This document shows, one piece after another, positions 8,143-35,925 of a stretch of 64,000 nucleotides of DNA. Every line of letters begins with the position of its first letter. Position 1 is the stretch's first letter. The notes beneath the pieces were generated by a model. That model was not told the origin of the DNA and made no database searches. It worked only from the letters and a program-made list of their open reading frames with translations. The stretch is from Fodinisporobacter ferrooxydans (GTDB lineage: Bacteria > Bacillota > Bacilli > Tumebacillales > MYW30-H2), in assembly GCF_022818495.1 (NCBI RefSeq), contig NZ_CP089291.1, positions 1 through 64,000 on the forward strand, in the 5' to 3' direction. A program made the position numbers and the translations under genes.

Positions 8143-8159
8143 TCTAGTGAATCCTCCTT

Positions 8160-17099: not shown

Positions 17100-18707
17100 C
17101 TACCAAGCGGCTACGCAACCATCCGTTCGTGGCTCGGTCCCACCGACCAATACACCATGTTCATTGCGCCAAATCACCTGTCCGCGCCCAAAGCTGCCTG
17201 AATCAAGAGAAACTTGGATATTGTGTCCTCGACGTGCCAGTTCTTGCACAATATGTTCCGGGATATTTCGTTCGACTTGAACTTTCATACCCTCCATCCA
17301 TTGCCATCTTGGAGCATCTAATGCCGCCTGCGGGTTCAAATGAAAGTCAATCGCGTTCATAACAACCTGCACATGGCCCTGTGGTTGCATAAATCCGCCC
17401 ATAACGCCAAATGGGCCGACAGCTTGATCGTCTTTTGTCAAGAATCCCGGGATAATCGTATGGTATGTCTTTTTCCCAGGTTCCAGGCGATTTTCATGGG
17501 ACAGATCCAGTGAGAAGTTGTGTCCCCGATTCTGTAGGCTGATTCCTGTTCCGGGAACAACGAGCCCGGAACCAAATCCCATATAGTTGCTTTGAATAAA
17601 GGAAACCATATTTCCTTCCCTGTCCGCTGTTGCCAAGTAGACAGTCCCTCCCTGCGGCGGAGTACCCGGTTCCGGTTGAATGGCTGTGTCTTTGATCAAG
17701 GCTCTACGTTCCGCGGCAAATGCTTCAGACAAAAGTCGTTCCACGGAAATTCCCATATGACGTACATCCGTAATCCAACGTTTCCCATCAGCAAATGCCA
17801 ATTTGATTGCCTCGATTTGTTTATGATATGTATCAACAGCATCCTTTGCCGGAAAATCAAATCCTTTTAAAATATTGAGTGCCAGCAATGCAACAAGCCC
17901 TTGGCCATTCGGGGGAATCTCCCAAACGTCATAGCCACGATAGTTAACATGAATCGGTTTGACCCATTCCGGTTGATAATCCAACAAATCCTCAATGCTT
18001 AAAAAACCGCCATATTGCTTTGAAAATTGATCAATCTGCTCTGCAATTTCTCCACGGTAAAAAGCTTCGGCATTTGTTTCGGCAATTGCTTGTAATGTAC
18101 TTGCATGCCCTTTTGAACGCCACATTTCTCCGATTTCCGGAGCCCTTCCGTCTGGAGCGAATGTTTCAAACCAGGCTGCAAACTCCGGTTCCACGCATTG
18201 CTCCTTGTATAACCTGTAGGCACGTTTCCAATACATGCCTAAAGTCGGAGAAACAGGATAACCATTTGCGGCATATTCAATTGCCGGACGCAGCACTTCT
18301 GTTAACGGCAGTTTTCCAAAGCGCCGGGAAAGCTGCGCCCATGCGGATGGCGCTCCAGGAACTGTAACCGGAACCAACCCGAATTTTGGGATTTCTGAAT
18401 ATCCCGCCTGTTTGAGTGCGTCGATTGAGAGCGCTTTTGGCGCCGGCCCACTCGCATTCAAACCATGCAACTGTCCATTTGTCCAGACAAGAGCAAACGC
18501 ATCGCCACCAATTCCATTTGAAGTTGGTTCCACTACCGTTAAACAAGCGGCTGTAGCGATGGCTGCATCAATTGCATTCCCGCCCTTTTTCAATATCTCA
18601 AGTCCTGCTTGTGCAGCAAGCGGCTGTGATGTCGCCACCATTCCATTATTTGCATATAGCGGCACCCTTCTTGAAGGGTACGGGTACGATAAAGCATCAT
18701 ATTTCAT
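17100..18707 (-). CDS. Gamma-glutamyltransferase-like protein, YwrD type
   Basis: A 535-residue Ntn-hydrolase of the gamma-glutamyltranspeptidase family. The large-subunit region begins NGMVATSQPLAAQAGLEILK, followed by GGNAIDAAIATAACLTVVEP. The predicted processing site is before the threonine of QGGTVYLATADREGN, which would become the small-subunit nucleophile, and the GGFMQPQGHVQV segment follows. There is no signal peptide, so the enzyme is probably cytoplasmic, as for YwrD. I chose ATG 18707 because the N-terminus MKYDALSYPYPSRR matches the family; an earlier in-frame start adds 23 unrelated residues. Its place after a peptide transporter suggests hydrolysis of imported gamma-glutamyl peptides. 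Confidence 0.88.
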   Translation of the reverse strand: MKYDALSYPYPSRRVPLYANNGMVATSQPLAAQAGLEILKKGGNAIDAAIATAACLTVVEPTSNGIGGDAFALVWTNGQLHGLNASGPAPKALSIDALKQAGYSEIPKFGLVPVTVPGAPSAWAQLSRRFGKLPLTEVLRPAIEYAANGYPVSPTLGMYWKRAYRLYKEQCVEPEFAAWFETFAPDGRAPEIGEMWRSKGHASTLQAIAETNAEAFYRGEIAEQIDQFSKQYGGFLSIEDLLDYQPEWVKPIHVNYRGYDVWEIPPNGQGLVALLALNILKGFDFPAKDAVDTYHKQIEAIKLAFADGKRWITDVRHMGISVERLLSEAFAAERRALIKDTAIQPEPGTPPQGGTVYLATADREGNMVSFIQSNYMGFGSGLVVPGTGISLQNRGHNFSLDLSHENRLEPGKKTYHTIIPGFLTKDDQAVGPFGVMGGFMQPQGHVQVVMNAIDFHLNPQAALDAPRWQWMEGMKVQVERNIPEHIVQELARRGHNIQVSLDSGSFGRGQVIWRNEHGVLVGGTEPRTDGCVAAW

Positions 18708-18792
18708 CCATCTATTCTCTCTTTCCTCTATAAAATCGCAACCATGCGTAAAGCCTGTCAAAACAAGTTGTTTCACATTTTATATCAATTTC

Positions 18793-19539
18793 TCACAAAC
18801 TTATTTCAGTTTTTTGCTTCGCTGCTATACTCGCTTCAGATACCGCAGCTGTTACAATAACGGTAAAAACAATCGCAATAGGAAGCCAAATGGCCTGTAA
18901 CTGCCAATGGTGTTCAATTGCTCCGCAAATGGCAGCGCCCATACCGTAAAACACAATCACAGTGATCCACATTACAATAGAGATTAAGGGCACCGTGTTT
19001 TCACTTTTTTCAACTATTCGAAGACGATTGTTTCCAAATTTCCACACCAAAGTTTCCACAAGTCCTGTCAGTGTGCTTGTAATAACTGTTGTTGTAACAC
19101 CGTTCACTCCAATTCTTCGTGCCGCAACCCCTTGCACACCCATGGCAAAGGCCAGTATCAGCAGCATAAGATCCACCTTTGCTCTTGTTACCCGAACCCC
19201 GGATGCAGAAACTATGATCGCAAACAACACGAGCGCCGCTAATTCAAAACAAAGTGTAAATGTTACCGTTCTGCTCCATCCAGTTGTTTTCCGAATTCGA
19301 CGCAACATCACGGCACCTGCTGCCGCCCCTAGGATAAATCCAAATAGCGCCACCAAATATGCAATTGCATTCAATCCGTCGCTATGCACAATGGCCAATC
19401 CAAACAAGACGGTATTTCCAGTCATGGCAGCCGTAAATACTTGCCCAAGCCCAAGAAAACCAATGGCGTCCACACACCCCGAAGTCACAGTGAGCAGTAC
19501 AAGCAAGATATTGCAAACAGTTCTGGACAAATGTATCAA
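18793..19539 (-). CDS. DUF1275 (YoaK-like) membrane protein
   Basis: A 248-residue integral membrane protein with about six helices. TSGCVDAIGFLGLGQVFTAAMTGNTVLFGLA near the N-terminus is the hallmark of the DUF1275/YoaK family, whose members may be permeases; the function is unproven. The gene lies between oppF-like and gamma-glutamyltransferase genes without an evident terminator, so it probably belongs to the same operon. Confidence 0.82.
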   Translation of the reverse strand: MIHLSRTVCNILLVLLTVTSGCVDAIGFLGLGQVFTAAMTGNTVLFGLAIVHSDGLNAIAYLVALFGFILGAAAGAVMLRRIRKTTGWSRTVTFTLCFELAALVLFAIIVSASGVRVTRAKVDLMLLILAFAMGVQGVAARRIGVNGVTTTVITSTLTGLVETLVWKFGNNRLRIVEKSENTVPLISIVMWITVIVFYGMGAAICGAIEHHWQLQAIWLPIAIVFTVIVTAAVSEASIAAKQKTEISL

Positions 19540-19599
19540 CCCTTTTTCTTTTCTATATGAATCTTTCTAAATGCTAAAACCTATACAGTCAAGGTGTGA

Positions 19600-20631
19600 C
19601 TAAATCTGACTCGCGGCGATCTGCTCGACAATAGAATTTAAACCCGGTTTTGTTTCAGTATTTTCTTCGAACAAATGACACGCTACCAAATGCCCACTCT
19701 CTTTTTCTTGTAAGAATGCAACACGAGACTTGCAGATATCCATTGCATGCCGGCAACGCGGATGAAATGTGCATCCCGAAGGAGGATTCGCCGGATTTGG
19801 CAAATCTCCCTGCAAAATAATCCGTTCACGTTTCACCCCTGGTTTTGCCATTGGCAACGCAGATAGCAATGCCTGTGTATAGGGATGCATAGAATTGGAA
19901 AAAAGCTTGTTTTTATCCCCAGTTTCCACAACAAGTCCCAAATACATGACAGCCACCCGATCACATAGATGTTTGACCACAGATAGATCATGAGAGATAA
20001 AAATCAATGTCAAATTAAACTCTTTTTTTAGATCTTTCAATAGATTCAAAATTTGTGACTGAATGGAAACATCCAATGCGGATACCGGCTCATCCGCAAT
20101 GATCAATTTCGGTTTGAGAACCAACGCCCGGGCTATTCCGATTCTTTGCCGTTGCCCGCCGGAAAAATTATGCGGAAACCGATCCAGATGCTGCTTTTTC
20201 AAACCTACGATTTCTATAATCTCTTCTACCCGCTGCATGCGTTCCGCCTTCGTCCCAATTCCATGCGCTTCCAATGTCTCCAGTAAAATATGCCGAATCT
20301 TTTTTCGTGGATTGAGGGAAGCATACGGGTCTTGAAAGACAAGTTGAATATCTTTCCGCGTCCGACGCATTTCTTCTTTACCAAGTGTGGCGAGGTCTTT
20401 TCCGTCAAACCAGATTTCACCTTCAGTCGGTTCCAAAAGCCTTAAAACCGAACGACCGGTTGTCGATTTTCCACAGCCAGACTCACCGACGATTCCTAAC
20501 GTTTCACCCGGCATTACCTGCAAATCTACACCATCTACAGCACGAACGTTGCCAGTCGTTTTATTAAAAAATCCTGTTTTAACGGGAAAGTATTTTTTCA
20601 ACCCTTTTACTTCCAGTAACGGTTTGTTCAT
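19600..20631 (-). CDS. Peptide ABC transporter ATP-binding protein (DppF/OppF type)
   Basis: A 343-residue ABC ATPase. The Walker A motif is GESGCGKST, the signature is [15 protein letters not shown] and the Walker B is [12 protein letters not shown]. The C-terminal oligopeptide-transporter domain contains [14 protein letters not shown], whose cysteines typically bind an iron-sulfur cluster. It powers di- or oligopeptide import together with the D-type ATPase. The start overlaps the preceding gene's stop by 4 bp. Confidence 0.92.
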
Positions 20632-21602
20632 GCTTCATCTCCCTCCGCATATAACCAGCAGCGGACTTTATGGTTGCCGCCCATGTCAATCAGTTGAGGC
20701 GGACTTTCATGACAAATATCCAGTGCGCGACTGCAACGTGGCGCAAAACGACATCCTTTTGGCATTTCATGAATCATCGGAACCGCTCCGGGGATTGTGT
20801 CTAAATATTCTTTTTCTTCATCAATATTTGGAGTGGAACGTAGCAAGCCAACTGTATAAGGATGCTTTGGCTGTTCAAAAAGTGTCTGAACAGCCGTTTC
20901 TTCCACAACAAGCCCGGCGTACATCACAATCACACGGTCACACATTTCTGCGACGACACCCAGATCATGTGTAATCAATAGGATCGCCGTTCCGGTTTCT
21001 TCTTTCAAATTCCGCATCAAATCCAGTATTTGCGCCTGAATCGTCACATCCAGTGCGGTTGTCGGCTCGTCCGCAATGATCACTTTCGGATTACACGCCA
21101 TCGCCATCGCAATCATAACCCGCTGCCGCATCCCTCCTGACAACTGATGCGGAAACTCTTTATACATTTCTTCTGCCCGCGGCATCCCTACCGCTTTCAG
21201 CATTTGAATCGCCCGCAATCTTGTTCCATTTTTATTTAGATTTGTATGCAAACGCAGGGCCTCTTCAATCTGCCTCCCAATGGTATGGAGAGGATTGAGT
21301 GATGTCATGGGTTCCTGAAAAATCATTGCAATCTCATTTCCACGGATTTTTTGCATTGCTTTTTCCGGAAGCGTCAAAAGTTCCCGATTTTCAAAGCGGA
21401 TCGAACCTTCAGAAATGCCACCTTTCGCAAGCAGCCTCATGATCGATAAACTTGTCACACTTTTTCCACAGCCGGACTCGCCAACCAAACCAACGGTCTC
21501 ACCAGCTTGTATCGAAAAATCAACACCGCTAACTATGGGCACCTTGCCACGTTCTGTTTTAAAAAACGTTTTCAGGTTTTTAACTTCCAAGACGGCAGGC
21601 AT
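20628..21602 (-). CDS. Peptide ABC transporter ATP-binding protein (DppD/OppD type)
   Basis: A 324-residue ABC ATPase with Walker [10 protein letters not shown], signature [16 protein letters not shown] and Walker [13 protein letters not shown]. It has the same cysteine-containing oligopeptide C-terminal domain ([14 protein letters not shown]). It pairs with the F-type ATPase encoded next to it, on the cytoplasmic face of the transporter. Confidence 0.92.
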
Positions 21603-21619
21603 TCAAATACCCCCTTCCT

Positions 21620-22450
21620 CTAATTTTTAATGCGCGGATCGAGAAATTGCTGCAATCCGTCCCCTAATAAATTGAAACCAAGCACCAAAATAAAGATAGC
21701 CAGGCCTGGGAAATACGTCGCATATGGCGCCTGGTCGATCAAGGTTTGTGCTTGATTCAGCATGCTTCCCCATGATGGTGCCGGCGGCTGTACCCCAAGA
21801 CCCAAATAGGAAAGAGATGCTTCAGCCAAGATTGCTGATGCCATCGCGAGCGTAGATTGAATAATGATCGGACTTAATGCATTGGGGAAAATATGGCCGA
21901 ATATAATCTTCCAATCTTTAATTCCGACAGCCTTTGCAGCCTGAATATATTCCAGATTCCGAAGCGATAATACCTGTCCGCGAGTGATGCGAATAAAAGA
22001 AGGAGCAAACCCGATCCCGATTGCTATCATCGCATTGCCAAATCCTGCTCCAAGGACTGCCGCAATTGCCAGTGCCAGAATTAAGAACGGAAACGCTTGC
22101 ATTGCATCAACGATCCGCATCACTACCCACTCATCCCAGAAACCCCGGTAATAACCGGAAAAAAGCCCGATTGGCACTCCAACGATCATGGCAATTCCGA
22201 CAGAAATCAACGCTGCTTTCATCGAAATTTGTGCACCAAAGACAACCCGTGAAAAAATGTCTCTGCCTAAATCATCTGTACCAAACCAGTGTGTCGTACT
22301 TGGAAGCTGCAATATCGCTTGGTAATTTTGGAAGTTTGGGTCATATGGAGCAATATGTTTGGCAAAAATTGCAACAAGCAACACAACGAGTACGATGAGC
22401 GCACCGATTACTCCAAGCCCATTCCGAAAAAATCTCACGTACTCTTTCAT
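21620..22450 (-). CDS. Peptide ABC transporter permease (DppC/OppC type)
   Basis: A 276-residue permease with six predicted helices and an N-terminal OppC-like segment (IAPYDPNFQNYQAIL, HWFGTDDLGRDIFSRVV). The EAA-type loop ...AAKAVGIKDWKIIFGHIFPNA contacts the ATPases. It overlaps the B-type permease gene by 4 bp. Confidence 0.93.
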   Translation of the reverse strand: MKEYVRFFRNGLGVIGALIVLVVLLVAIFAKHIAPYDPNFQNYQAILQLPSTTHWFGTDDLGRDIFSRVVFGAQISMKAALISVGIAMIVGVPIGLFSGYYRGFWDEWVVMRIVDAMQAFPFLILALAIAAVLGAGFGNAMIAIGIGFAPSFIRITRGQVLSLRNLEYIQAAKAVGIKDWKIIFGHIFPNALSPIIIQSTLAMASAILAEASLSYLGLGVQPPAPSWGSMLNQAQTLIDQAPYATYFPGLAIFILVLGFNLLGDGLQQFLDPRIKN

Positions 22451-23403
22451 GCTTCAACCCCCTTGCCCGCTTTCATGCGCGGATCGATCACCGCATATAG
22501 CAAATCGACAACGAGGTTAACCATAACTACAAGTGCGGCCGATACTAACACTGCGCCTTGCACTGTCACATAATCCCGCTTAAAAACAGAATCGACGATA
22601 AGTCGGCCAAACCCCGGAATACCAAAAATAGATTCGGTAATGACCAAGCCCCCCAATAGGCCGGCAACCGTCAATCCGGAAGTAGTTACAACAGGGATCA
22701 TCGCATTGCGCAATGCGTGTCCCAGGATTGTTGCCCGTTCATCAAGCCCTTTTGCTTTGGCTGTACGGATAAAATCCATGTTTACCACTTCCAGCAATGA
22801 AGACCGCAACATACGCATGATGACAGCAGACTCTCTGATTCCCGTCGCAATACATGGCAAGATCATTGCTTCAATATTCATGACGGGATTCTGGGTAAAT
22901 GGGACATAACCTGAAGCTGGAAGCCAGTGGTTATTGACTGCAAAAAAGATGATCAGCATTAACCCCAGCCAAAAATTTGGAATACTCATTCCTCCAAGCC
23001 CTGTAAACGTACTGAGATAATCAATCCAGGTTCCCCGTTTGACCGCAGCAAGAATGCCTGTTGGAAACGCTATCAATATGGCAACCAGAAATGTACCGAT
23101 CGTTAGTTCAATCGTTGCAGGCAAACGTTGCGCAATTAAAGATGCGACCGAAACATGGTCCGTTATGGACATTCCCAAATCACCGTGCAATACTTTCAGG
23201 AGCCAAAGAAAGTATTGTTCTACAAGTGGTTTATCCAATCCTAACTCATGTCTGAGATTCTGATACATTTCTGGTGTTGCCTCCTGTCCCAGTATGACCC
23301 GGGCTGGATCGCCCGGAATCAAGTGAACCAAAGAGAAAACCATGATCGACACCAGAAAGAGAATCGGTATTGTCATAATGAGGCGGCGCAGTAAAAATTT
23401 CAT
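22447..23403 (-). CDS. Peptide ABC transporter permease (DppB/OppB type)
   Basis: A 318-residue permease. It opens with RRLIMTIPILFLVSIMVFSL, then HLIPGDPARVILG, which are characteristic of DppB proteins. The inner-membrane-permease loop RTAKAKGLDERATILGHALRNA binds the ATPases. It is the first permease after the substrate-binding protein gene. Confidence 0.93.
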   Translation of the reverse strand: MKFLLRRLIMTIPILFLVSIMVFSLVHLIPGDPARVILGQEATPEMYQNLRHELGLDKPLVEQYFLWLLKVLHGDLGMSITDHVSVASLIAQRLPATIELTIGTFLVAILIAFPTGILAAVKRGTWIDYLSTFTGLGGMSIPNFWLGLMLIIFFAVNNHWLPASGYVPFTQNPVMNIEAMILPCIATGIRESAVIMRMLRSSLLEVVNMDFIRTAKAKGLDERATILGHALRNAMIPVVTTSGLTVAGLLGGLVITESIFGIPGFGRLIVDSVFKRDYVTVQGAVLVSAALVVMVNLVVDLLYAVIDPRMKAGKGVEA

Positions 23404-23442
23404 TCCAGATTCCCCCTTGGTAATGATGCCATTACTGGCCTT

Positions 23443-24987
23443 TTAGTTTTTACCAATGGCAGCTGTTCGAACAATCCCATCCGGTACATACGTGAATCCA
23501 TTAATTTTCTTCGAAATTCCAAAGATATTGTACTCGTGATAAATGTAAGTGTAACCGGCATTGTTATGCAACTCCACCATCGCCTGATCATACAGTTGTT
23601 TCCGTTTGCCGTTATCAAGCTCCACACGCGCTTGATTCAAAAGCTTATCCAACTTTGGATCGGAGATGCGGGCATTGTTTTCAGGCTGGCCTGTCACAAC
23701 AAAATCGTAAATATTTTGATCCGGATCCGGCCGTCCGGACCAACCGAGTTGCAATGCCTGGAATTTCCCATCATTTCCGTTGGAAATCAGTGTGCCAAAC
23801 TCGGTTTTTTCTAATTTCATATTAATTCCATACTTCTTCAACATACCTTGAATGACCGTTCCAAACTGTTCTCCGATCGTTGTCGTAGGAATTTCCAGAG
23901 TAAAGGAGAAGCCGTTTGGCTTGCCGCCTTTTGCGAGCAAATCTTTGATTTCGCCATCATTTGGAGCCGGAGCTTTATCGGAACTGCCATACGCGAGATC
24001 CCCCGGGCCAAACGGAGAATATGCAGGCGCGCCATACCCGTTAAAAAGCACTTTTACAATTGTGTTCCGGTCGATTGCATGGTCTACGGCTTCCCGCAGA
24101 TATTGATTGTTGAACGGCGCTATCGTTTCATTCATATAGAAGCCCTGGAATGCCATTCCTGCATCCGCTACAAGTGATAGATTCGGATCACTTTTGATTG
24201 TTGGAATTTCCCGCACCGGTATAACATTTGGCCCAACGATATCCAACATGCCGGACTTTAAGTTTTGAACGGCAGCAGAACCATCTGCAAATACTTTAAA
24301 GACAACTTCCGATAGCTTCGGCTTTCCATTCCAATACGTATCATTACGCTTCAGCGTTACATGATCGCCTTTCAAATGTTCAACAAACACGAACGGCCCT
24401 GTTCCAACCGGATGATTCTGGTAATCAGATCCATACTTTTTGACAGCGGCAGGAGATGCCATCATACCTGACCGGTCAGCCAATATCGAAATGAACGGTG
24501 CAAACGGTTTCTTTAACACGATTCGCACAGTCGACGGGTCCACAACAGATACCGATTGAACCATTGCCAATTCACCAGTACGTTTGGATCCTTTCGACAT
24601 ATCACGTTCTAGATTGAACTTGACTGCATCCGCATTAAAATCTGTACCATCCTGAAATTTGATGCCAGTACGAAGTTTGATTATGTATATCTTGCCATCT
24701 GTTGTTTCATAAGAAGTTGCAAGCATGGGGACTATTTTTCCGTCTTTATCGAGATCAAATAACTTGTCATAAATGCTGTTTTGCACCATGCGGTCAACAA
24801 GCGCACTGGATGTCATCGGATCGAGGCTCGGCGGATCTGCCTGTATGCCAATATTGAGTACTTTATTTCCATTGCTTGCACTTGACGAAGAGGATGTTTG
24901 TACAGAATTGCTGCCGCAACCCGTTGCAACTAATACTGTTCCTAAAACAACTGCTGCTACTGATCGTTTTCCTATTTTTTTCAACAT
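23443..24987 (-). CDS. Peptide-binding lipoprotein of the ABC transporter (SBP family 5)
   Basis: A 514-residue extracellular solute-binding protein. Residues 1-24 form a lipoprotein signal with the cleavage motif VATGC, and a serine-rich linker anchors the mature protein. Family-5 features include PPSLDPMTSSALVDRMV near residue 55 and NAVKFNLERD-like DADAVKFNLERD near 125. It delivers peptides to the permeases encoded downstream. The ribosome site GGGGGAA precedes ATG 24987. It is the first gene of the uptake operon, just downstream of an Lrp-type regulator. Confidence 0.92.
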   Translation of the reverse strand: MLKKIGKRSVAAVVLGTVLVATGCGSNSVQTSSSSSASNGNKVLNIGIQADPPSLDPMTSSALVDRMVQNSIYDKLFDLDKDGKIVPMLATSYETTDGKIYIIKLRTGIKFQDGTDFNADAVKFNLERDMSKGSKRTGELAMVQSVSVVDPSTVRIVLKKPFAPFISILADRSGMMASPAAVKKYGSDYQNHPVGTGPFVFVEHLKGDHVTLKRNDTYWNGKPKLSEVVFKVFADGSAAVQNLKSGMLDIVGPNVIPVREIPTIKSDPNLSLVADAGMAFQGFYMNETIAPFNNQYLREAVDHAIDRNTIVKVLFNGYGAPAYSPFGPGDLAYGSSDKAPAPNDGEIKDLLAKGGKPNGFSFTLEIPTTTIGEQFGTVIQGMLKKYGINMKLEKTEFGTLISNGNDGKFQALQLGWSGRPDPDQNIYDFVVTGQPENNARISDPKLDKLLNQARVELDNGKRKQLYDQAMVELHNNAGYTYIYHEYNIFGISKKINGFTYVPDGIVRTAAIGKN

Positions 24988-25053
24988 TAAATACTTCCCC
25001 CTTTATATTTTTAATTGGAATAAAAAACATGTTAAATACTAAATTGAATCAAT

Positions 25054-25066
25054 AAATAGACTATTT
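25054..25066. promoter_or_regulatory. Palindromic operator candidate upstream of the peptide operon
   Basis: AAATAGACTATTT is a perfect 13-bp palindrome about 70 bp before the substrate-binding-protein start and just after the Lrp-type gene. AT-rich palindromes of this kind are typical Lrp/AsnC binding sites. Regulation is inferred. Confidence 0.4.
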
Positions 25067-25117
25067 GATAGATAAATTGATATTGTTAGATAAATGCAAT
25101 AACCTTGGTATGCCTGG

Positions 25118-25618
25118 CTAGCGGATAAATTTATACTTGGATTTCAAATGCTTCAATTGAATCATGACATTGGACCGTGTGATCCCTTCGATCTTATTTA
25201 ACTTGTTCATTACAAAATCTGATAATTCCTCATTGGTTCTGGTAAATACCTCAAGCAATAATTGAAATTCACCTGTCATTAGAACAATAAGTCGAACCTC
25301 ATCCAGTTCATTTAACTTTTCCACTACTTGATCCAAGAAAGCATCCCGTACGGAAAGCTGAACAATCGATTGAACGCGAATTCCAGCTTTGACAGGATTG
25401 ACTACCCCGACAAGACGAAGGATTCCATCTTTTTGCAATTGTTGCACACGCGTGCGAATGGTTCTTTCTGTGACACCTAATTGACCTGCAATATGTGTAA
25501 ACGGAGTGCGAGCGTTATCTTGCAGAAACTTCACAATTTCATAATCCAAATCATCCAAATTGCTCATCAATGGTTTCATTTGAAGATCTTCCATAATATC
25601 ACCTGATTTCGTATTCAA
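25118..25618 (-). CDS. Lrp/AsnC family transcriptional regulator
   Basis: A 166-residue feast/famine regulator. An N-terminal winged helix (LDDLDYEIVKFLQDNARTPF, then VTERTIRTRVQQLQKDGI) is joined to a C-terminal RAM/AsnC ligand-binding domain. It is encoded immediately upstream of the peptide transporter operon in the same direction, and a palindrome lies between them. Regulation of peptide or amino acid uptake is inferred. Confidence 0.9.
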   Translation of the reverse strand: MNTKSGDIMEDLQMKPLMSNLDDLDYEIVKFLQDNARTPFTHIAGQLGVTERTIRTRVQQLQKDGILRLVGVVNPVKAGIRVQSIVQLSVRDAFLDQVVEKLNELDEVRLIVLMTGEFQLLLEVFTRTNEELSDFVMNKLNKIEGITRSNVMIQLKHLKSKYKFIR

Positions 25619-25885: not shown

Positions 25886-26104
25886 TTACAAAGATTTACT
25901 TTTAAATGCAATGAGTGCCTGACATGCAAGTTCTTGTCCGAATTTTTCGACGATTTGCGATCGGATTGCGGATTCACGGACAGATTGACTCCAATGAAGC
26001 ATCTGCCTGGAAATCTTTTCGTACGCCTCAAGATCTGTTATTTCACTGATGGAACGGAATGACAATTGTTCGTTTCCGATTGAAATCGTAAATGTAACAG
26101 CCAT
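25886..26104 (-). CDS. 72-aa protein of unknown function, divergent from the recombinase
   Basis: A small protein starting MAVTFTISIGNEQLSFRSI, with a short beta-rich N-terminus followed by helices. It has its own ribosome site (AGGAGGAG upstream of ATG 26104) and its own terminator. It is transcribed divergently from the serine recombinase, 126 bp away. I do not recognise the family. Its size and placement would suit a recombination directionality factor, as SprB is for SprA, but that is only a positional guess. Confidence 0.6.
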   Translation of the reverse strand: MAVTFTISIGNEQLSFRSISEITDLEAYEKISRQMLHWSQSVRESAIRSQIVEKFGQELACQALIAFKSKSL

Positions 26105-26168
26105 GCCATCTCCTCCTACATTACCCTATGAAGAAAGATGATTGGGACAACCTTATTATTTTTCGACT

Positions 26169-26198
26169 TCAATTTTTCAGATCTCCAAGCATAGAAAT
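26169..26198 (+). promoter_or_regulatory. Possible mother-cell (sigma-E-like) promoter of the recombinase
   Basis: CATAGAAAT at 26190 resembles the sigma-E -10 element CATACANT, with an AT-rich AATTT about 15 bp upstream. The fit is partial. It is listed because such elements use sporulation-timed recombinase expression. Confidence 0.2.
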
Positions 26199-26230
26199 AG
26201 AACAAGTCCAACTTTCGGAGGTTCAACAAC

Positions 26231-27682
26231 ATGTCCGACTTTCCGTTAAAACGTATCGCCATCTATTGCCGGGTGTCCACGGATGAACAAGCAAAAGAGG
26301 GTGTTTCATTAGAAGAACAACGGACTCGGTTGCAGGCGTACTGCCGGGCGATGGGATGGACTGTCGAAATTGTGGAATTTATCGATGATGGGTATTCTGC
26401 CAAAAACCTGAATCGGCCTGCCCTAAACTCCCTTTTGCAACAGATCAAGAATGGCGATATTGCAAAGTTAATGGTTACGAAATTGGACCGTTTAAGCAGG
26501 CGGCTATTGGATCTGCTGCAACTGATCGAGCTATTCCATCAATACTCTGTTTCGTTTATATCGACAAGCGAATCCTTTGATACGGATACACCATCGGGCC
26601 GTCTGACTCTCCAAGTCCTGGGAGCGGTGGCGGAATTTGAGCGGGAACGAATTCGCGAACGTGTATTTGATAATATGCTTCATGCAGCCAAAACAGGAAA
26701 ATGGCTGACACAGCACCCCTATGGGTATCGATTGGACGAAAAAAAATTGGTGATTTTTGAACCGGAAGCTGAAATCGTCAAACGTATATTCCATATGTTT
26801 GTGAATGAAGGACTCGGTTACTATAGCATTGCAAAAAAACTAAATGAAGAAGGGATACCCTCCCGGCAAAATAAAGAATGGTCGCTGCGATCTGTAAAAC
26901 TTATGCTTGCAAACCCGGTTTACATAGGCACGCTTGCATGGAATCGGATCGATTCAAGCAAAAAGAAAAGAGAAAGTAAAGATGAAAACGAATGGATCGT
27001 GATTCCAAACGCTCATCCGGCCATTATCGACCAAGACACATGGGATATCGTTCAAGAGCGAATGAATAAACCACAGGTACCCTCAAGAGCAAAAACAAGT
27101 CCTCATATACTTGGCGGGCTTCTAAAATGCGGAAAATGCGGAGCCTCCATGAGCATCGATTGGTCCGGCTGGCCAAAGCGCCATCGCGTCTATCGCTGTT
27201 CTGCCTATAAAAACAAGGGAACCTGTGACAGTAAACCATATCGGGCCGATGATGTAGAAACGTGGTTCAAAAAAGGAATCATGGAGTTAATCGATTCGAT
27301 TGATACTACATGCCATGAAGTAACCATTCAGAAGGTACAAAAAGAAAACAAAGAAAAAATCGAGCAAAAAATGAAACACGCGAAAGAGAGATATTCCCGA
27401 CAGGTAGAGGCGTATACTGCAGGGCTGATTGAATTGAATGATTTGGCGAAGGAAAAAGAAAAAATGGAACAAAGTATACTCGAAGCACAAAAAAGGATGG
27501 AAACAAACGATTCGAGCCATGCATATTCCGAGTTGGAAACGAAGCTGAATACACAAGAGATGACCATATTGGAAAGTTTTGCTATTTTGCCGATAGAAGA
27601 AGCAAAAGCCCGATTGCGGTTGATCGTCGACAAAGTGGTATTACATGGGGAGGAGAATTTGGAACTTGTTATTGCGATATGA
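26231..27682 (+). CDS. Large serine recombinase, SpoIVCA/SprA-like
   Basis: A 483-residue large serine recombinase. The resolvase domain spans about 8-150, with the nucleophile Ser16 in YCRVSTDEQ and the catalytic arginines and aspartate in KLDRLSR (84-90). The Recombinase domain follows (about 160-275). A zinc ribbon carries Cys300, Cys303, Cys323 and Cys332, and a coiled coil spans about 360-440. Such enzymes perform directional attP x attB recombination; SpoIVCA and SprA excise elements from sporulation genes. The start is ATG 26231, with GGAGG upstream. It is the obvious candidate to act on the two 21-bp repeats in spoVR, although it lies about 9.8 and 8.5 kb from the ends. Confidence 0.93.
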   Translation: MSDFPLKRIAIYCRVSTDEQAKEGVSLEEQRTRLQAYCRAMGWTVEIVEFIDDGYSAKNLNRPALNSLLQQIKNGDIAKLMVTKLDRLSRRLLDLLQLIELFHQYSVSFISTSESFDTDTPSGRLTLQVLGAVAEFERERIRERVFDNMLHAAKTGKWLTQHPYGYRLDEKKLVIFEPEAEIVKRIFHMFVNEGLGYYSIAKKLNEEGIPSRQNKEWSLRSVKLMLANPVYIGTLAWNRIDSSKKKRESKDENEWIVIPNAHPAIIDQDTWDIVQERMNKPQVPSRAKTSPHILGGLLKCGKCGASMSIDWSGWPKRHRVYRCSAYKNKGTCDSKPYRADDVETWFKKGIMELIDSIDTTCHEVTIQKVQKENKEKIEQKMKHAKERYSRQVEAYTAGLIELNDLAKEKEKMEQSILEAQKRMETNDSSHAYSELETKLNTQEMTILESFAILPIEEAKARLRLIVDKVVLHGEENLELVIAI

Positions 27683-28077: not shown

Positions 28078-28620
28078 ATGTTAGCACGTGATCAATCCAT
28101 TTTACATTACCTGAATGCATTCCGGGTATTAAGCCGCGATCAGATTGCAACACTCGTATGTAATGACGTAAAAAATCCAGCATATATCGCGAGCAGAGTT
28201 TGCAAACGCTTGGGGAGAGATGGCCATTTGACAATCTTGGCACAAGAAAAAGGAAAACAAAATTTGTATATGCCAAAACCCCCGCTCATTCATCCGCGCT
28301 CCATACGTGTGAATCATTTTCTGGCCATCGCTGATTTGTATATAAAATTAGACAAACCACAGGTATTTGATGTCGAACCGGCTTATTTTCAGCATGGCTA
28401 TCGGCCGGATGTGTATGCCATCATCGACGGCATTCCTGTATGTATTGAAGTCCAACTCAGTCGTATATCCAAGAAAAAGATGCAGGATAAAGCGAATCGG
28501 TTCATTCAGTCGTATTATCATAGCGAACATAAAGCAAAAACCTTATGGATTTATTCATCCATTCATTACGATGTCAAATTATTTGGTACGTTTCGAATTA
28601 AAAACGGATTAGAATGGTAA
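28078..28620 (+). CDS. Replication-relaxation family protein
   Basis: A 180-residue protein. The N-terminal winged helix (HYLNAFRVLSRDQIATLVC...SRVCKRLGRDGHL) and the C-terminal RPDVYAIIDGIPVCIEVQ segment followed by a basic helix fit the replication-relaxation family found on plasmids, conjugative elements and phages. The acidic/glutamate pattern of that segment resembles a PD-(D/E)xK nuclease core, which is an inference. ATG 28078 follows GTAAGGAAGTG. It is the only other clearly element-type gene besides the recombinase. Confidence 0.72.
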   Translation: MLARDQSILHYLNAFRVLSRDQIATLVCNDVKNPAYIASRVCKRLGRDGHLTILAQEKGKQNLYMPKPPLIHPRSIRVNHFLAIADLYIKLDKPQVFDVEPAYFQHGYRPDVYAIIDGIPVCIEVQLSRISKKKMQDKANRFIQSYYHSEHKAKTLWIYSSIHYDVKLFGTFRIKNGLEW

Positions 28621-28836: not shown

Positions 28837-29964
28837 TTATATTAATGAAATGTAAAGTTCCAATATCTTTTGCGAGACTTGGCAGCTGTTAAAATTATTT
28901 TTAACATACTCCCTGCCATGTTCCCCCAATGATTTTCTCTCTTCGGAGTCTAAAAGTACGGTTGCTAAAGAAACGGCCAACGAAACCTCTGTTACTTCGC
29001 GATCTGCTTTATGATCTCCAAAATAACACTGCCACGCTTGCGTGTAGTTAGATGGTTTGACCAGACCAAATAGCCCACGACCGCCAGCTGCAATAACTGG
29101 GCATTTACATGCCATGGCTTCAAGAGCAACCCGTCCCGTTCCTACGACACAATTGCTTATTGAATAAAGTGGGGCCATATCAAATTGTATACCCAGTGCA
29201 TGAATGAACTCAGTTCCCGCTTCCCCATGAATACGGTCGACAACTTGTTTGATTTCTTTAAAACCGATCCCATCGCCTGCAATTAAAACTCTTAAATCCG
29301 GCATCTGCTCTCTCTGAAGATATTTGCAAGCGTGCAACATTCGAATACAAATGTCCGCTTTTTCCCACGCAAGTCTTCCAGCATATAAAACTACAGGTTC
29401 GTTTTTTGAAATGTTATAAGTTTCTCGAATGTCTTTATTTAAAATAGGTTTGTATAATTCGGTATCAATACAATTCGGAATAATTATAGAGGAAATATCT
29501 TTGCTTTTCAGCCAATCAAAGGTAGGTAGACTTACACTGATTACTCTCGTCGTATTTTTAAGGATGGATTTTAAAACATCTTTATCATAATAAGTGCCGT
29601 GTACTGTGAAAACTAAAGGAATTCCCAGTTTCTTTGAGATAGAAACTACAAATCGTGCCGACGTTGTTTGATGTGCATGAATAACATTGATATTTTCTTT
29701 TTCGATTATATTCTGTAATTCTTTACTAATAGTTAGCCACTTGGATGGCGTAACAGAGATCGATATCGGGAAATCTATTAAATATATGGAACATCCGATA
29801 TTTACAAAGCTGTCATACAGGGGACCATGTTTCCCGACAATTACAACATGGACGCCTGTTTTCATTAATTCACGTGCAACAGTCAGCACCTGTGTTTCCG
29901 TCCCCCCAACAAAGAAACCGTCCAAAACAATTAACAATCGAATTTTGCAATCCGGCCTTGTCAT
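28837..29964 (-). CDS. GT4-type glycosyltransferase
   Basis: A glycosyltransferase of about 375 residues with a GT-B fold. The N-terminal domain has LDGFFVGGTETQVLTVARELM and the VIHAHQTTSARFV segment. The C-terminal domain has VVLYAGRLAWEKAD, and FGLVKPSNY after VGTGRVALEAMACKCPVIAA, the donor-binding region. I prefer the start at 29964 (MTRPDCKIRLLIV) to the upstream in-frame ATG 30006. It is a clear paralogue of the gene at 31904, which faces it from the other side of two GT2 genes. A polysaccharide or glycoprotein substrate is likely but unknown. Confidence 0.85.
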   Translation of the reverse strand: MTRPDCKIRLLIVLDGFFVGGTETQVLTVARELMKTGVHVVIVGKHGPLYDSFVNIGCSIYLIDFPISISVTPSKWLTISKELQNIIEKENINVIHAHQTTSARFVVSISKKLGIPLVFTVHGTYYDKDVLKSILKNTTRVISVSLPTFDWLKSKDISSIIIPNCIDTELYKPILNKDIRETYNISKNEPVVLYAGRLAWEKADICIRMLHACKYLQREQMPDLRVLIAGDGIGFKEIKQVVDRIHGEAGTEFIHALGIQFDMAPLYSISNCVVGTGRVALEAMACKCPVIAAGGRGLFGLVKPSNYTQAWQCYFGDHKADREVTEVSLAVSLATVLLDSEERKSLGEHGREYVKNNFNSCQVSQKILELYISLI

Positions 29965-30058
29965 TATTATTGTATTATAAAGATTCACTAAACCCACCTC
30001 ATGCATACTGAGTTATTTTTCGAATGTAAATTTATAGAATGGATTAACCGTGATATTT

Positions 30059-30745
30059 TTAAGATCGTTGCAAATTATGATTTCGATAATAATAAAGAGT
30101 AACGGGTATATTATCGACTTCTACGCCATTCGCTATATATCTGCAAATGAATTCCCAATCCTCCGCTCCAATCACTTTATTTGAAAAGCCGCCAAGTTCG
30201 TCGAAAACAGATCCTCTGAAAAGCATGGTGCCTACACTGACACAATGGCCACCCAATGCATAGGTATTTCGAATATTATCGACTCCGTATGCCAGCCAAA
30301 AAGATGCCTCTTGTTTTTGGTCAAAAAGACCTTCATTAAACGACGCATAATTGCTGCCAACCGCACCAATTTCAGGATGTTCTTGAAGATACTCTACCTG
30401 TCTTTGAATGCGTTCAGGATGGGAAATATCATCCATATCATGAATTGCGATAAATTCACCCCTCGATAGGAAGAATCCGGTTGTCACTGTACCGGAGCAC
30501 CCTACATTACGGGGGAGCTCAACAAATATTAGTCGTTCCGGATCTATTTGATTTTGATAAGATTTAATCAGTTCCTTGACTTGTTGAACACTGTTATCAG
30601 TCGATTTATCGTCAATTATAATAATCTCATTGTTGCGATACGTTTGGTTTATTAAAGAATGGAGGCATTCTTTCACATACTGCCCGTTATTAAAACAGGT
30701 TACGATCACACTAACCAATCCGGATTGTCTTTCGAAAGACATCAT
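30059..30745 (-). CDS. GT2-type glycosyltransferase
   Basis: A 228-residue GT-A glycosyltransferase. SVIVTCFNNGQYVKECLHSL and EIIIIDDKSTDNS mark the nucleotide-binding half, and AIHDMDDISHPERI carries the DXD-type metal motif. It lacks a transmembrane anchor. It is paralogous to its neighbour at 30791-31498, and the two form a tandem duplication. It starts behind AAGGGGTG. Confidence 0.87.
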   Translation of the reverse strand: MMSFERQSGLVSVIVTCFNNGQYVKECLHSLINQTYRNNEIIIIDDKSTDNSVQQVKELIKSYQNQIDPERLIFVELPRNVGCSGTVTTGFFLSRGEFIAIHDMDDISHPERIQRQVEYLQEHPEIGAVGSNYASFNEGLFDQKQEASFWLAYGVDNIRNTYALGGHCVSVGTMLFRGSVFDELGGFSNKVIGAEDWEFICRYIANGVEVDNIPVTLYYYRNHNLQRS

Positions 30746-30790
30746 TCAACACCCCTTCAACAACAGCATAGGATTCAGATTTTACGGATT

Positions 30791-31498
30791 TCACCAAACA
30801 TCTGCCCATTTGTTTTCATGGGTGTTGCCTCCTTTACTTCTGCGATAATAAAGAATATCTTGAATATTTACAGCGTTTATATTTTCTAACACTACACATC
30901 GAAAGATAAATTCATAAACCGGAGTTTCCAGCATACTTCTATTTAATCCGCCCAATCGATCAAATAAGTTTCCACGTAACATTACACTCCCTGCACAAAT
31001 GCAATGATTTCCAAACGAAAAAGATTCGAAGATGTCCTCACTTCCATACTGTAATGATGTAGCCATCGTTTGTTTCTCAAAACATCCATCTTCAAAAAAT
31101 GTGTAATTGGTTCCGAGTAATTGTACATCCGGATTTCCTTGTAAATACTCTACCTGTTTTTGCATTCGTTCTGGGTGAGAAATATCGTCCGGATGGTGTA
31201 AGGCAATAAACTCACCTCGTGCCAAAAAGAAACCGATTGTAATAATGCCGGTTTCCTTGATAGTACGTGGAATTGAACAATGAATAATACGGTTTGTTCC
31301 AAGCATTGATTCTGTACGACTTCTCCACTTTAAAACAATCGAGTTTGTTTTATCCACTGAAGCATCATCGACTACGATTATTTCGATGTTTTTATAATTT
31401 TGCTTGATAAGGCTGTCAAGGCAATCCTCAATATGTGCAGAATTGTTATTGCTAGGAATGATAATACTGACTAATCCGGGTTCTCTAGAATAAGACAT
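30791..31498 (-). CDS. GT2-type glycosyltransferase, diverged paralogue
   Basis: A 235-residue GT-A protein with the same layout as its neighbour (SIIIPSNNNSAHIEDCLDSL, EIIVVDDASVDKT). The metal motif region is ALHHPDDISHPERM. The catalytic region reads MLETPVYEFIFR where the neighbour has VIGAEDWEFICR, so the conserved ED pair near the active site is missing. This suggests altered or lost activity. Confidence 0.83.
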   Translation of the reverse strand: MSYSREPGLVSIIIPSNNNSAHIEDCLDSLIKQNYKNIEIIVVDDASVDKTNSIVLKWRSRTESMLGTNRIIHCSIPRTIKETGIITIGFFLARGEFIALHHPDDISHPERMQKQVEYLQGNPDVQLLGTNYTFFEDGCFEKQTMATSLQYGSEDIFESFSFGNHCICAGSVMLRGNLFDRLGGLNRSMLETPVYEFIFRCVVLENINAVNIQDILYYRRSKGGNTHENKWADVW

Positions 31499-31903
31499 GG
31501 AGTCACTCTCCTGTTATTTCCAAAATTCCATTAAGATATCGTATGAGTATTACAAATCAACCGTTCTGATACAATAGTGGAAAAATCTTATATAGTAGAT
31601 GAATACTGTACAATCGTTTAACACATAATTCTCCCTCTGCTCATAAGTATGTTAAAAGAAAAAATGAGTGGATTTGTTGCTATGAATGATATATTGAGGA
31701 TGTCTGCTTATCCAGATGATGGATGTGAATTTGAGGAGTTCCATTAATAACTTAAATTTTTCCAGCGAGCAGAAGTTTAAATTGCGCTACTTTTTATACG
31801 AAAATAACATTTTCATATCATGTGGTGGCCATAAGGCCATGTTGGTTTTTAAACATCCTCTTAAAGACATGTCAGGTTTAAGGAAGTTATAGAGGTGAAT
31901 CCT
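31499..31903. other. Intergenic region between divergent glycosyltransferase genes
   Basis: About 400 bp, AT-rich, holding the two divergent promoters. A TGGCC/GGCCA hairpin lies near 31826. A 27-codon frame from 31664 lacks a ribosome site. Nothing else stands out. Confidence 0.4.
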
Positions 31904-33067
31904 ATGGCAGTTTACCGTCCCCGTGTCCTTATGGTTTTGGACGAATTATGTGTTGGCGGAACAGAAACCCATGTATTATCAATCACTCGTGAACTTATGA
32001 AAAACGATATACATGTTGTAGTTTGCGCTGCCGAAGGAGACATGCTAAATGATTTTTTGCAAGTTGGATGCCCCGTTTATTTGATAAATTTCTTGAATAA
32101 AAATAAAGCGGTAGAAGAAAGCACGACTGATGCGGGTCATATGGAAGATAGTATGATCGAAATGATTAAGGAAATCATTCAAAAGGAACATGTTAATTTA
32201 ATCCACGCACATCAAAAACCTTCCGGGTTGTTCGTATGTAAGGTTGCCAAACTATTGGGAATCCCATTCATTTTGACTGTTCATGGTTTGTATTACAGTG
32301 AGTCTACTTTATCTTCCTTTACCCAATATGGCGCCACTACTATTGCAGTAAGTCCTCCTGTGCAAAAAAAGCTAAAATCACATAACATTGAATCTATTCT
32401 CATTCCCAATGGAATTGACACGTCAATTTTTCATCCAAATAAGGATATCAATTCTTTACGGAGGAGTTTAGGTATATCTAAAAAATCTCCGATTGTTGTT
32501 TATGTGGGAAGGCTGACGTCGAAAAAAGCGGCAATTTGTAAAAAAGTCATTAAAGCTTGTCGCGCACTAAGAAAAAAAGAACTAAAATCTCTGCAATTAA
32601 TCATAGCAGGTAATGGAGTAAATTATAATGAACTTGAAAATTATGTAAGACAAACAGAACTTAAAACAAAGAGCCACTTTATTCACATAATTGGATTGCA
32701 GAAAGATATGAGTTCTATATATTCTGCCGCTGATTGTATTATAGGAACAGGTCGCGTGGCATTAGAAGCAATGGCGTGTGAACGGCCTGTGATCGCAATC
32801 GGAACGAAAGGTTTTATGGGATTGGTTATACCTAGGCATTTTGAAAAAGCCTGGCAGCAGTATTTTGGAGATCATGCCGCCGACTTCCCATGTTTAACTC
32901 ATTTCATTCAACAAGCTCTCATAAATGTTTTATCTGTTTCCAATAGCATGAGTATATTTTACGGTATTAAAAACAGAGAATTTATAAAGGAGAAATTTAA
33001 CATAATACAAGTTGCAAAACAAACAATTGATGTTTATACCAGTGTTCTTGAACGTTTTCAAATATAA
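31904..33067 (+). CDS. GT4-type glycosyltransferase
   Basis: A 387-residue GT-B glycosyltransferase. It carries LDELCVGGTETHVLSITRELM, LIHAHQKPSGLFVCKVAKLL, VVYVGRLTSKKA and GTGRVALEAMACERPVIAI, each matching the GT4 gene at 28837 on the opposite strand. ATG 31904 follows GAGGTG by six bases; the in-frame GTG at 31895 is part of that ribosome site. Together the four genes look like a duplicated surface-glycan unit. Confidence 0.87.
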   Translation: MAVYRPRVLMVLDELCVGGTETHVLSITRELMKNDIHVVVCAAEGDMLNDFLQVGCPVYLINFLNKNKAVEESTTDAGHMEDSMIEMIKEIIQKEHVNLIHAHQKPSGLFVCKVAKLLGIPFILTVHGLYYSESTLSSFTQYGATTIAVSPPVQKKLKSHNIESILIPNGIDTSIFHPNKDINSLRRSLGISKKSPIVVYVGRLTSKKAAICKKVIKACRALRKKELKSLQLIIAGNGVNYNELENYVRQTELKTKSHFIHIIGLQKDMSSIYSAADCIIGTGRVALEAMACERPVIAIGTKGFMGLVIPRHFEKAWQQYFGDHAADFPCLTHFIQQALINVLSVSNSMSIFYGIKNREFIKEKFNIIQVAKQTIDVYTSVLERFQI

Positions 33068-33266: not shown

Positions 33267-35276
33267 TTATCCACTTGAGTCATGCAGTCGAAGGCGCTTG
33301 CCATTTTTCAAATCGGTTCGTTCCATGCTTATGATACAGGTCCACGTCGTTCCGTGTCTGATGCTGCTTTCCAGAATAGCGACCCCGTTGATCGATTGAC
33401 AGCGTTTGTGTATGGAGCGTAACCCAAAATGATGTTCTGTATCGACCTTCTCTATGTCAAACCCGCACCCATTATCCTGAATCCGAATGAGCAGTTGGGA
33501 TTGTGATCGCAAAAGCTGAACGTCTACCCGCGTGGCCTTGGCGTGTTTTCGAACATTCGTGAGCCCTTCTTGAATGATCCTTACAATTTCTGTTACAAGA
33601 TGATCATTCAGATCTTCGAACGTTCCTTGTGTTTGCAGATGCGTTGTAATTCCCGTTCTCCATTTCATTGCATTCAGCATGTCCTGAACGAGTGTCTGCA
33701 GTTCGCCGTGTAAAACATTCAAATTGTGTAATGTTTGCCGCAGTTCTAGATGGCTTTGGTCGAGCACTTCCGATATCTCGTTCAGTTTTCTCTTTAGTTC
33801 CGCAGGATTGTAAACATCAATCCGTTTGGCGACAAATTTCAGCTTCATATTCATATACGCCAAATCCTGCACCACCGTATCATGCAAGTCGCGAGCCAGC
33901 CGTTCCCGCTCTTTCAGCGTATACTCCAGCTCCTCGCTTCGTTTTTGCTCTTCCGACAATTTTTTGGTATCTGTGATGTCTCTGGCAACAACCAATGTCA
34001 ATGGATCCCCGTTAAAGTAAATCGCCACTGCGTTCACTTCAACATCTAGTACTTGACCATCCAGCCGAATCAACTTTTCCTCCAGGAAACCAATCGGTTT
34101 TTTTTCCTTCAAAACTTGTTCAAATCTTTTCCTGGCGATTTCCCGAAAATCCGGGTGTATAAACTTAAGTATTGGTGTACCTATAATATCGTCCGCACTT
34201 GCTGCGCCTAGAAGCTTTACGCCTGCACGATTGATATAGGTGAAAATGCCTTCTTTATGGAGCACAATTGCCTCAGGGGAAAGTTCAACAAGAAGACGGT
34301 ATCTTTCTTCACTCTCGATAAGTTTTTCTTGTGATTTTTTCCAATCGGTGATGTTTCTTATGATTGCTGCTATGGCAACAACGTTTCCTTTGTGATCTCG
34401 TACCGGGGATATCGTTGCGCTTACATGGATATAACTTCCATCTTTATGTTGTCCAATACCTTCAAACATGGATAGCCGTTCACCAGATATCACTTGCCGT
34501 TTAATTTCCTCATAGCAATTCATGAAATTTTTCGGAATAATAGGTATTTTATTCCCTATCGCTTCTTCGGCAGACCAACCGAATATAGATTCAAAAGCAT
34601 TGTTCACCTGTACGATATGTCCTTCAAGATCTACCATAACAATTGCATCTGCCGTGTTTTCGAAAAATGATGCCAGTTGCTCTTGTGTCGCTTTCAACTC
34701 TTCTTCTATTTTTTTTCGCTCTGTAATGTCAAAAGTAAATCCATGGATTTGATTGATGGTTCCCTGCATATCGGCTACCGGAATGATGGTGTTCATGATC
34801 CAACGAACTTCGCCAACCGGATCGAAAACACGATATTCAATCTGCTTTGACTTCCCGGTGATCAAGATTTCTCGTTCCATCTGATTTAAGTAGTCACGGT
34901 CATCCGGATGCGTGATTTCTTTCCAAAAATTCGGATTATTGTTGTAGTTCTTTCTAAGGAACTCCGATACTTTCCCTCCTGTTGAAATCAATATGGAATT
35001 TCGTCGAACATCACGAGACCAAATGGCGACATTTAAGCAATCGGCTGCATGTTCTAAAAGTTCCAGCGATTGTTCCGACTTTTTTTTATAAAATTGAGCG
35101 GTGTAATAGAATTTACAAAAAAACCAAACGATAAAACCTATAAAAATGATGTTTATTAAATCAGAAATGTCCATCCGTTCCATAATACACGGATACATAC
35201 TGAATCCAATAGACAGAATCAAAAAGATGAATAAATATACGACTTTGCAGTTCGCACCATTGATCTTATTTTTCAT
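33267..35276 (-). CDS. PAS-containing sensor histidine kinase (HisKA_3 type)
   Basis: A 669-residue kinase with two N-terminal membrane helices (about 10-30 and 37-58). Three PAS domains span roughly 70-190, 200-320 and 325-440, including the ITHPDDRDYLNQM and VQVNNAFESIFGWSAEEAIG segments. The HisKA_3 dimerization helix contains RLARDLHDTVVQDL, with the phospho-accepting histidine, and a HATPase_c domain ends the protein (IQDNGCGFD). It is related to the DegS/LiaS group. The gene start overlaps the response-regulator stop by 11 bp. The signal is unknown; PAS domains often bind haem, flavin or small ligands. Confidence 0.92.
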   Translation of the reverse strand: MKNKINGANCKVVYLFIFLILSIGFSMYPCIMERMDISDLINIIFIGFIVWFFCKFYYTAQFYKKKSEQSLELLEHAADCLNVAIWSRDVRRNSILISTGGKVSEFLRKNYNNNPNFWKEITHPDDRDYLNQMEREILITGKSKQIEYRVFDPVGEVRWIMNTIIPVADMQGTINQIHGFTFDITERKKIEEELKATQEQLASFFENTADAIVMVDLEGHIVQVNNAFESIFGWSAEEAIGNKIPIIPKNFMNCYEEIKRQVISGERLSMFEGIGQHKDGSYIHVSATISPVRDHKGNVVAIAAIIRNITDWKKSQEKLIESEERYRLLVELSPEAIVLHKEGIFTYINRAGVKLLGAASADDIIGTPILKFIHPDFREIARKRFEQVLKEKKPIGFLEEKLIRLDGQVLDVEVNAVAIYFNGDPLTLVVARDITDTKKLSEEQKRSEELEYTLKERERLARDLHDTVVQDLAYMNMKLKFVAKRIDVYNPAELKRKLNEISEVLDQSHLELRQTLHNLNVLHGELQTLVQDMLNAMKWRTGITTHLQTQGTFEDLNDHLVTEIVRIIQEGLTNVRKHAKATRVDVQLLRSQSQLLIRIQDNGCGFDIEKVDTEHHFGLRSIHKRCQSINGVAILESSIRHGTTWTCIISMERTDLKNGKRLRLHDSSG

Positions 35277-35925
35277 CCTGCATCCCCTTTGTGATCCCTT
35301 CTTTCACTGCGAATGCAGCAGCTTGAAACCGATTCTGCATTTTTAACTTTACCAAAATATTCCCGACATGGTTGCGTACTGTGTTTTCGCTGATAAATAA
35401 CCGCTGGGCGATCTCGCGATTTGTTGCGCCGGTGCTTAATTCACGCAATATATCAATCTCTCTGGGAGTGAGCTGTTCAACTTGGGGATTTGATTTGTGC
35501 AGGATTTTTGAAAGTTCTGATAGTAGTTTTACGGTTATATTGCCAGGAACGACTGCCTCCCCGGCATACACGCGGCGTATCGCTTCGATCATATCATCCG
35601 GATCCGTTGTTTTCATTACATATCCATGTGCCCCATTTTCGATTGCCGCAAAAAGCAAATGTTCACTCATATTTCCTGTCAAAACCAACACGCGTGTAGA
35701 AATATCCATGCCACGAAGTTTACATAAAGTTTCTATTCCATCCATACCTGGCATTGTCAGATCCAGTATAAGTATATCAGGAGCTGATCTCCTGATTGCA
35801 AAAATGGCCTCTTCCCCATTGCTTGCCTCTCCCACAACCTGAATATCACCTGCTTGTTGCAAAATCTCAATCAATCCAGCCCGGAACAATTTATGATCAT
35901 CAACGACAAAAACGTGAATTGGCAT
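35266..35925 (-). CDS. NarL/LuxR-type response regulator
   Basis: A 219-residue regulator. The receiver domain (4-120) has the acidic pair VVDDH, the phospho-acceptor aspartate in ILILDLTMPGMDG and a conserved lysine in GYVMKTTDP. The LuxR-type helix-turn-helix (about 150-210) carries LTPREIDILRELSTGATNREIA. It is encoded upstream of and translationally coupled with the histidine kinase. It is the last gene before the right core repeat of the spoVR element. Confidence 0.93.
   Translation of the reverse strand: MPIHVFVVDDHKLFRAGLIEILQQAGDIQVVGEASNGEEAIFAIRRSAPDILILDLTMPGMDGIETLCKLRGMDISTRVLVLTGNMSEHLLFAAIENGAHGYVMKTTDPDDMIEAIRRVYAGEAVVPGNITVKLLSELSKILHKSNPQVEQLTPREIDILRELSTGATNREIAQRLFISENTVRNHVGNILVKLKMQNRFQAAAFAVKEGITKGMQDEK

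Follow-up and report, generated by a model that had tools for sequence, protein, structure and literature searches.

What does it mean when the recombinase gene of a mobile element lies in its middle, far from both attachment (att) sites? We addressed this for a stretch of 64,000 nucleotides from Fodinisporobacter ferrooxydans (the window), in which a 19.75-kb (19,750-bp) element with 21-bp direct repeats as its ends interrupts the gene spoVR. An earlier note on this DNA started from the premise that large serine recombinases normally sit beside one att site, and offered two readings: cargo was inserted on both sides of the recombinase, or the recombinase belongs to a nested older element. We compared the locus with related elements from other genomes.

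The split spoVR gene and its element

The repeat is exact in both copies (Table 1), and after removal of one repeat unit the flanks join as an uninterrupted SpoVR of 474 aa, encoded on the minus strand. spoVR is described as a mother-cell gene (PMC6957869). Hence a mother-cell sporulation gene is split and its frame restored when the flanks are joined, and judging from the association and the att profile presented below the element appears to encode the recombinase for its own ends. The window element is a sporulation-gene intervening element in spoVR, in a non-phage and cargo-carrying form; the kind of element is already known from skin, vrin and gin. No phage structural genes were found among its 17 proteins using Pfam; the comparison with PHROGs covered four window proteins and one small protein of a relative.

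Table 1. Features of the element and of the interrupted spoVR gene (positions in the window).
Feature	Position	Strand	Basis
spoVR C-half, also delimited as 15830-16441	15830..16470	-	
Left junction att site (spoVR C-half side); 21-bp repeat 16449-16469, predicted crossover dinucleotide 16458-16459	16433..16484	-	
83-aa MqsA-antitoxin-like zinc protein beside left end	16632..16883	+	Pfam, 28.5 bits (below cut-off of 30)
Cargo block 1: gamma-glutamyltranspeptidase, DUF1275, oligopeptide ABC transporter, AsnC-type regulator	17100..25618	-	Pfam
72-aa gene divergent from recombinase, candidate recombination directionality factor (RDF)	25886..26104	-	
Divergent intergenic region between 72-aa gene and recombinase	26105..26230	.	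Motif search
Large serine recombinase, 483 aa, ATG start; putative integrase/excisionase of element	26231..27682	+	Pfam domains
180-aa gene, weak similarity to Replic_Relax/CoiA nuclease and PHROG 2190 (replication initiation)	28078..28620	+	
Cargo block 2: four glycosyltransferases (28837-30006 -, 30059-30745 -, 30791-31498 -, 31895-33067 +)	28837..33067	-/+	Pfam
Cargo block 3: PAS histidine kinase and LuxR-type response regulator	33267..35925	-	Pfam
Right junction att site (spoVR N-half side); 21-bp repeat 36199-36219, predicted crossover dinucleotide 36208-36209	36183..36234	-	
spoVR N-half, 273-aa ORF reading on into element	36183..37004	-	

The oligopeptide transporter of block 1 comprises two ATPases, two permeases and a binding protein. 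Except for the two ATPases, which have relatives in genome G357 only, the cargo of the window element has no relatives in the other 19 elements of our comparison. The binding protein has relatives at up to 63% identity in several genomes elsewhere in the class, and for one glycosyltransferase a 48% relative occurs within the same order; no donor of the cargo can be named from the relatives of these two proteins. The 180-aa gene downstream of the recombinase, also without a relative in the other 19 elements, is perhaps a remnant of a replicating ancestor. The MqsA-like protein stands alone by the left att site, with no toxin partner seen.

The recombinase, its clade and the att sites

The recombinase shows Resolvase (5.8e-43), Recombinase (1.4e-31) and zinc beta-ribbon (8.3e-15) domains. 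S16, which we take to be the catalytic serine of the family, and Cys 300/303/323/332 are invariant across an alignment of 20 recombinase sequences. The three domains together with this serine place the protein among the large serine recombinases, and its best match in the PDB is 9dxh (YokA; 3.5e-29). It is under purifying selection (dN/dS 0.03-0.20 in five sister pairs). A comparison with 50,697 records of phages and 72,556 of plasmids gave no named carrier at an identity of at least 60%. Pfam identified no second recombinase in the 17 element proteins; elsewhere the host genome contains eight further serine-recombinase matches, at most 29% identical to that of the element. In genome G000 four serine-recombinase copies with identical match scores and 688-aa frames (G000:C1 577385, 1157085, 1846028 and 3884749; L005-L008) probably represent a multi-copy transposon.

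Searching with the recombinase, and not with spoVR, retrieved 19 further distinct genomes, 18 of them at roughly 57-67% identity and G357 at 47%; G061/G251 and G062/G322 share identical coordinates and each pair was counted once. In all 20 genomes, the window included, spoVR is split at the same codon. The N-half stops at residue 268-276 in 20/20 and the C-half begins at 246-264 in 19/20, the C-half of G067 being cut by the contig start, which leaves its left edge unseen. Joining the halves gives an open frame through NEGWA(S/T)YWH in each of the 19 testable elements. The joined SpoVR of G030 is without the residues just before the junction and the joined frame of G043 has only 362 aa, so that in some elements the restored gene may not be functional. 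When 101 relatives were searched for spoVR, 76 gave a match, and a split at the recombinase-associated codon was found only in G000, G030, G043, G050 and G069, all five of which carry the recombinase clade. From this co-occurrence the recombinase of the window element is most likely the enzyme for the spoVR ends.

spoVR is also interrupted elsewhere. In Ferroacidibacillus organovorans (L009:1025-1219, 8165-8836) and in G357 (L097/L098) it is split twice, at residues ~64 and ~268, each split having its own serine recombinase. A second insertion site near residue 60 is seen in G075 (L119), G004 (L120/L121) and G080 (L122/L123), with another recombinase clade, 47-54% identical to the one of L009. 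Recombinases of this clade end about 10-40 bp from the spoVR fragment, the textbook end position, and the spoVR parts are ~57 kb (G004) and ~135 kb (G080) apart. Two genomes, G102 (L118:1622-1923, 7356-8771) and G070 (L117:1930-2407, 6816-8204), have an intact spoVR and a decayed C-half ~4-5 kb downstream, in G102 with the att arm kept. Neither has a match to the element recombinase in the stretch examined, and the pair may possibly represent escape from the element with cargo kept.

For the att sites a profile was built from 34 half-sites of other elements, with the window left out; G000, G357 and G043N were excluded. Over the 64-kb window the two element ends rank first and second (scores 23.3 and 20.7), while the maxima in six shuffled windows were 8.4-18.4; spoVR sequence contributes part of the score at the window ends. 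If only the 16-bp arm that comes from the element is scored, the right end takes first place among 127,970 positions and the left end, whose arm is weak, the 25th. According to the profile both ends are real att sites and not chance repeats. A further match at 1910 has no second half-site and scores within the range of the shuffled maxima; we discarded it. Att-like sites near 26.1 and 27.7 kb, which the earlier note proposed to look for, are absent: the best profile score between 25.0 and 29.0 kb is 1.7, and within the window element the profile picks up no further att site that is complete.

The elements have att arms and core in common. Across the 16 elements with both junctions the arms are strongly symmetric, G357 being the most divergent. 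For these 16 the site of the excised circle can be predicted, which in the form of G391 would read TAAGCACCTTAGCAA-TACGAAGGC-TG-GGCTTCGTA-TCGCCAAGGTGCTTA. The two copies differ at core position 9 in G113 and at position 13 in G062 and G286, which confines the crossover to the central TG/TGG. A palindromic core permitting insertion both ways was ruled out, the bracketed TG being non-palindromic.

Position of the recombinase and exchange of cargo

Between the recombinase gene and the predicted crossover there are 8526 bp on the right (N-half) side and 9773 bp on the left (C-half) side, which bears out the estimates of about 8.5 and 9.8 kb made previously; its midpoint is at 0.47 along the element. 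In the 16 complete elements (6.0-37.6 kb) the midpoint varies between 0.12 and 0.86 of the length. In 6/16 the gene is within 1.5 kb of one end, in another 6/16 over 5 kb separate it from either end, and 4/16 are intermediate. The premise of a location at the att site is too strict for this family, in which the recombinase is more than 2 kb from both ends in 10/16. Since the midpoints spread so widely, the central place in the window element is one of many. The earlier note named a recombinase that is always central in relatives as a finding that would speak against its reading; with midpoints from 12% to 86% this case does not arise. On a contig from a viral collection (L124) about 40 bp separate the recombinase from the att arm of the N-half junction.

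The proposal that cargo entered on both sides gained support from sister elements. The sole long alignment between G065 and G066 is a 6.7-kb block (88% identical) including the recombinase; between block and ends nothing aligns on either side except the last 35 bp. G069 and G109 have a 6.1-kb core in common at 96%, with flanks partly common and rearranged. More DNA is common to G293 and G391, and little outside the recombinase region to G030 and G050. In most relatives, though not in the window element, an HTH gene and two further serine recombinases adjoin the core. Pfam analysis of selected proteins of G062, G286, G113 and G066 identified as cargo a cytochrome bd oxidase (G062) and an arsenite pump with ArsA-type ATPases (G286). 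These comparisons fit an exchange in which a conserved core persisted and the cargo to its left and right was replaced. For the window element itself the search turned up no closer relative, and its cargo history is deduced from other lineages.

We consider it very probable that the island is a spoVR intervening element excised by its own recombinase, whose central place results from exchange of cargo on both sides of a core. In the sporulating mother cell the recombinase would act together with the divergently encoded 72-aa protein as directionality factor; the two 52-bp junctions would recombine at the central TG dinucleotide, releasing a 19.75-kb circle and restoring the 474-aa SpoVR. The forespore would make no active recombinase/RDF pair and would keep the island. 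Because the enzyme would act in trans, its distance from the ends would be immaterial, and because the small recombination core would be the stable part while cargo on both sides was replaced over time, the recombinase would come to lie in the middle.

As a tentative possibility, the core might in addition be a cassette that moves or inverts inside the element irrespective of the cargo; this would not conflict with the explanation above and may be part of it. Relative to spoVR the recombinase has the opposite orientation in ten and the same in six of the 16 elements; in G293 and G391 the block made up of recombinase, HTH gene and two further recombinases is turned round as a whole in comparison to G065, and with a non-palindromic TG core insertion orientation alone gives no explanation for a change in orientation. 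However, ordinary inversions or cargo swaps would give an identical picture.

Rather unlikely is tandem accretion, in which a second island joined a first at one spoVR site and the subsequent loss of one recombinase and of the inner att site left the remaining recombinase in the middle. Composite islands are described for SCC (PMC5595907), and spoVR of Ferroacidibacillus and G357 was struck twice, though at two different sites. Against this, the window element is without a complete internal att site and the sister pairs show replaced flanks, not doubled ends. That the island stays in place for good, leaving spoVR simply broken, appears very improbable to us: excision is a predicted step of our explanation and spoVR could be dispensable, but the frame is open across the join in 19/19, the recombinase is under purifying selection in all five sister pairs, and G070 and G102 have an intact spoVR next to a leftover C-half where the stretch examined holds no recombinase relative. 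Least probable is a recombinase left from an older nested element with a different enzyme acting on the spoVR repeats, a reading that the distance from both ends and the eight other serine-recombinase matches in the genome might favor, but against which stand the tie of the clade to the same spoVR codon in 20/20 genomes, the lack of another recombinase among the 17 element proteins and of an att-like site near the gene, and the low identity of the other genomic recombinases.

Returning to excision by the element's own recombinase, we see an even chance that it extends to a Bacilli-wide family of non-phage cargo islands at one spoVR codon. These would possess a self-contained core that functions independently of place and orientation, consisting of recombinase, divergent candidate RDF and shared mother-cell promoter region, and would exchange metabolic cargo on both sides, with functions in peptide import, cytochrome bd or arsenic export among others. 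If so, sporulation would be the selective force maintaining the excision machinery. The comparison indicates that an intervening element needs no recombinase at its end, and it provides spoVR elements with a defined att site and a candidate RDF. Within the 20 elements compared, the recombination module appears to be protected by gene restoration while cargo turns over.

The 72-aa gene, its promoter region and known systems

Relatives of the 72-aa gene adjoin the recombinase in divergent orientation in all 20 elements. dN/dS values of 0.09-0.24 in four of five sister pairs indicate purifying selection, the fifth pair being saturated. The protein belongs to no Pfam or PHROG family; its fold is predicted with a pLDDT of 88, and a search of solved (PDB) structures with the predicted model returned no significant relative. 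From its position and by analogy with RDFs of 42-72 aa it is probably the excision partner; reported sizes are 42 aa for GirX (PMC5595907), 64 aa for Skr (PMC6957869) and 72 aa for CD1234 (PMC5025042).

The intergenic region of the pair was searched for motifs with strings taken as the sigma-E and SpoIIID consensus. Toward the recombinase lies CATAGAAATA (26190-26199), a CATA-box motif overlapping the SpoIIID-like TAGAACAAGT (26198-26207), and toward the 72-aa gene GGTTGTCC (26145-26152) is separated by N14 from CATA (26127-26130). WWRRACARNY was found in 10 of 19 upstream regions (2.3 expected from shuffled sequence) and GGTT(G/A)TC-N10-18-CATA likewise in 10 of 19 (0.02 expected); the exact SpoIIID-like string is absent from 9/19. 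G043, in which the anchor motif was not found, was excluded from this count. The motifs resemble mother-cell promoter motifs and suggest mother-cell control of the gene pair. SpoIIID is reported to switch on spoIVCA, the recombinase gene of skin (PMC517825). The 72-aa candidate RDF gene and the mother-cell-like motifs between the two genes are probably new here.

Among the matches listed in the full-text literature were the known cases, and no survey of spoVR elements or of the recombinase position in them. Closest in target is vrin, the spoVR intervening element of Geobacillus thermoglucosidasius C56-YS93 described by Abe et al. in 2013 (as summarized in PMC4191935). As in the window, spoVR is split by an element with its own recombination system, and vrin is said to be rearranged in sporulation. 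The account of vrin mentions phage-related genes (PMC4191935), of which none were seen in the window element; this description alone sets the two apart and they may overlap. The element gin of Bacillus cereus ATCC10987 is likewise non-phage and located in a mother-cell gene, and has the serine recombinase GirC and the 42-aa RDF GirX (PMC5595907). It differs in its target, gerE, and in possessing three serine recombinases (girA, girB, girC), a set that the window element with one recombinase lacks. The HTH gene and two further serine recombinases of the relatives are reminiscent of gin girA/girB (PMC5595907). The SPbeta integrase SprA/YokA is reported to work with an RDF, and excision of SPbeta to rebuild spsM in sporulation (PMC4191935). 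YokA is the best structural match of our recombinase; this similarity is distant, and SPbeta, unlike the window element, is an active prophage in another gene. In skin of Clostridioides difficile, which resides in sigK and not in spoVR, a recombinase is described together with a 72-aa RDF, CD1234, and sigma-E and SpoIIID control the gene of this RDF (PMC5025042); it is in the size and the predicted control of its candidate RDF that we liken the window element to skin.
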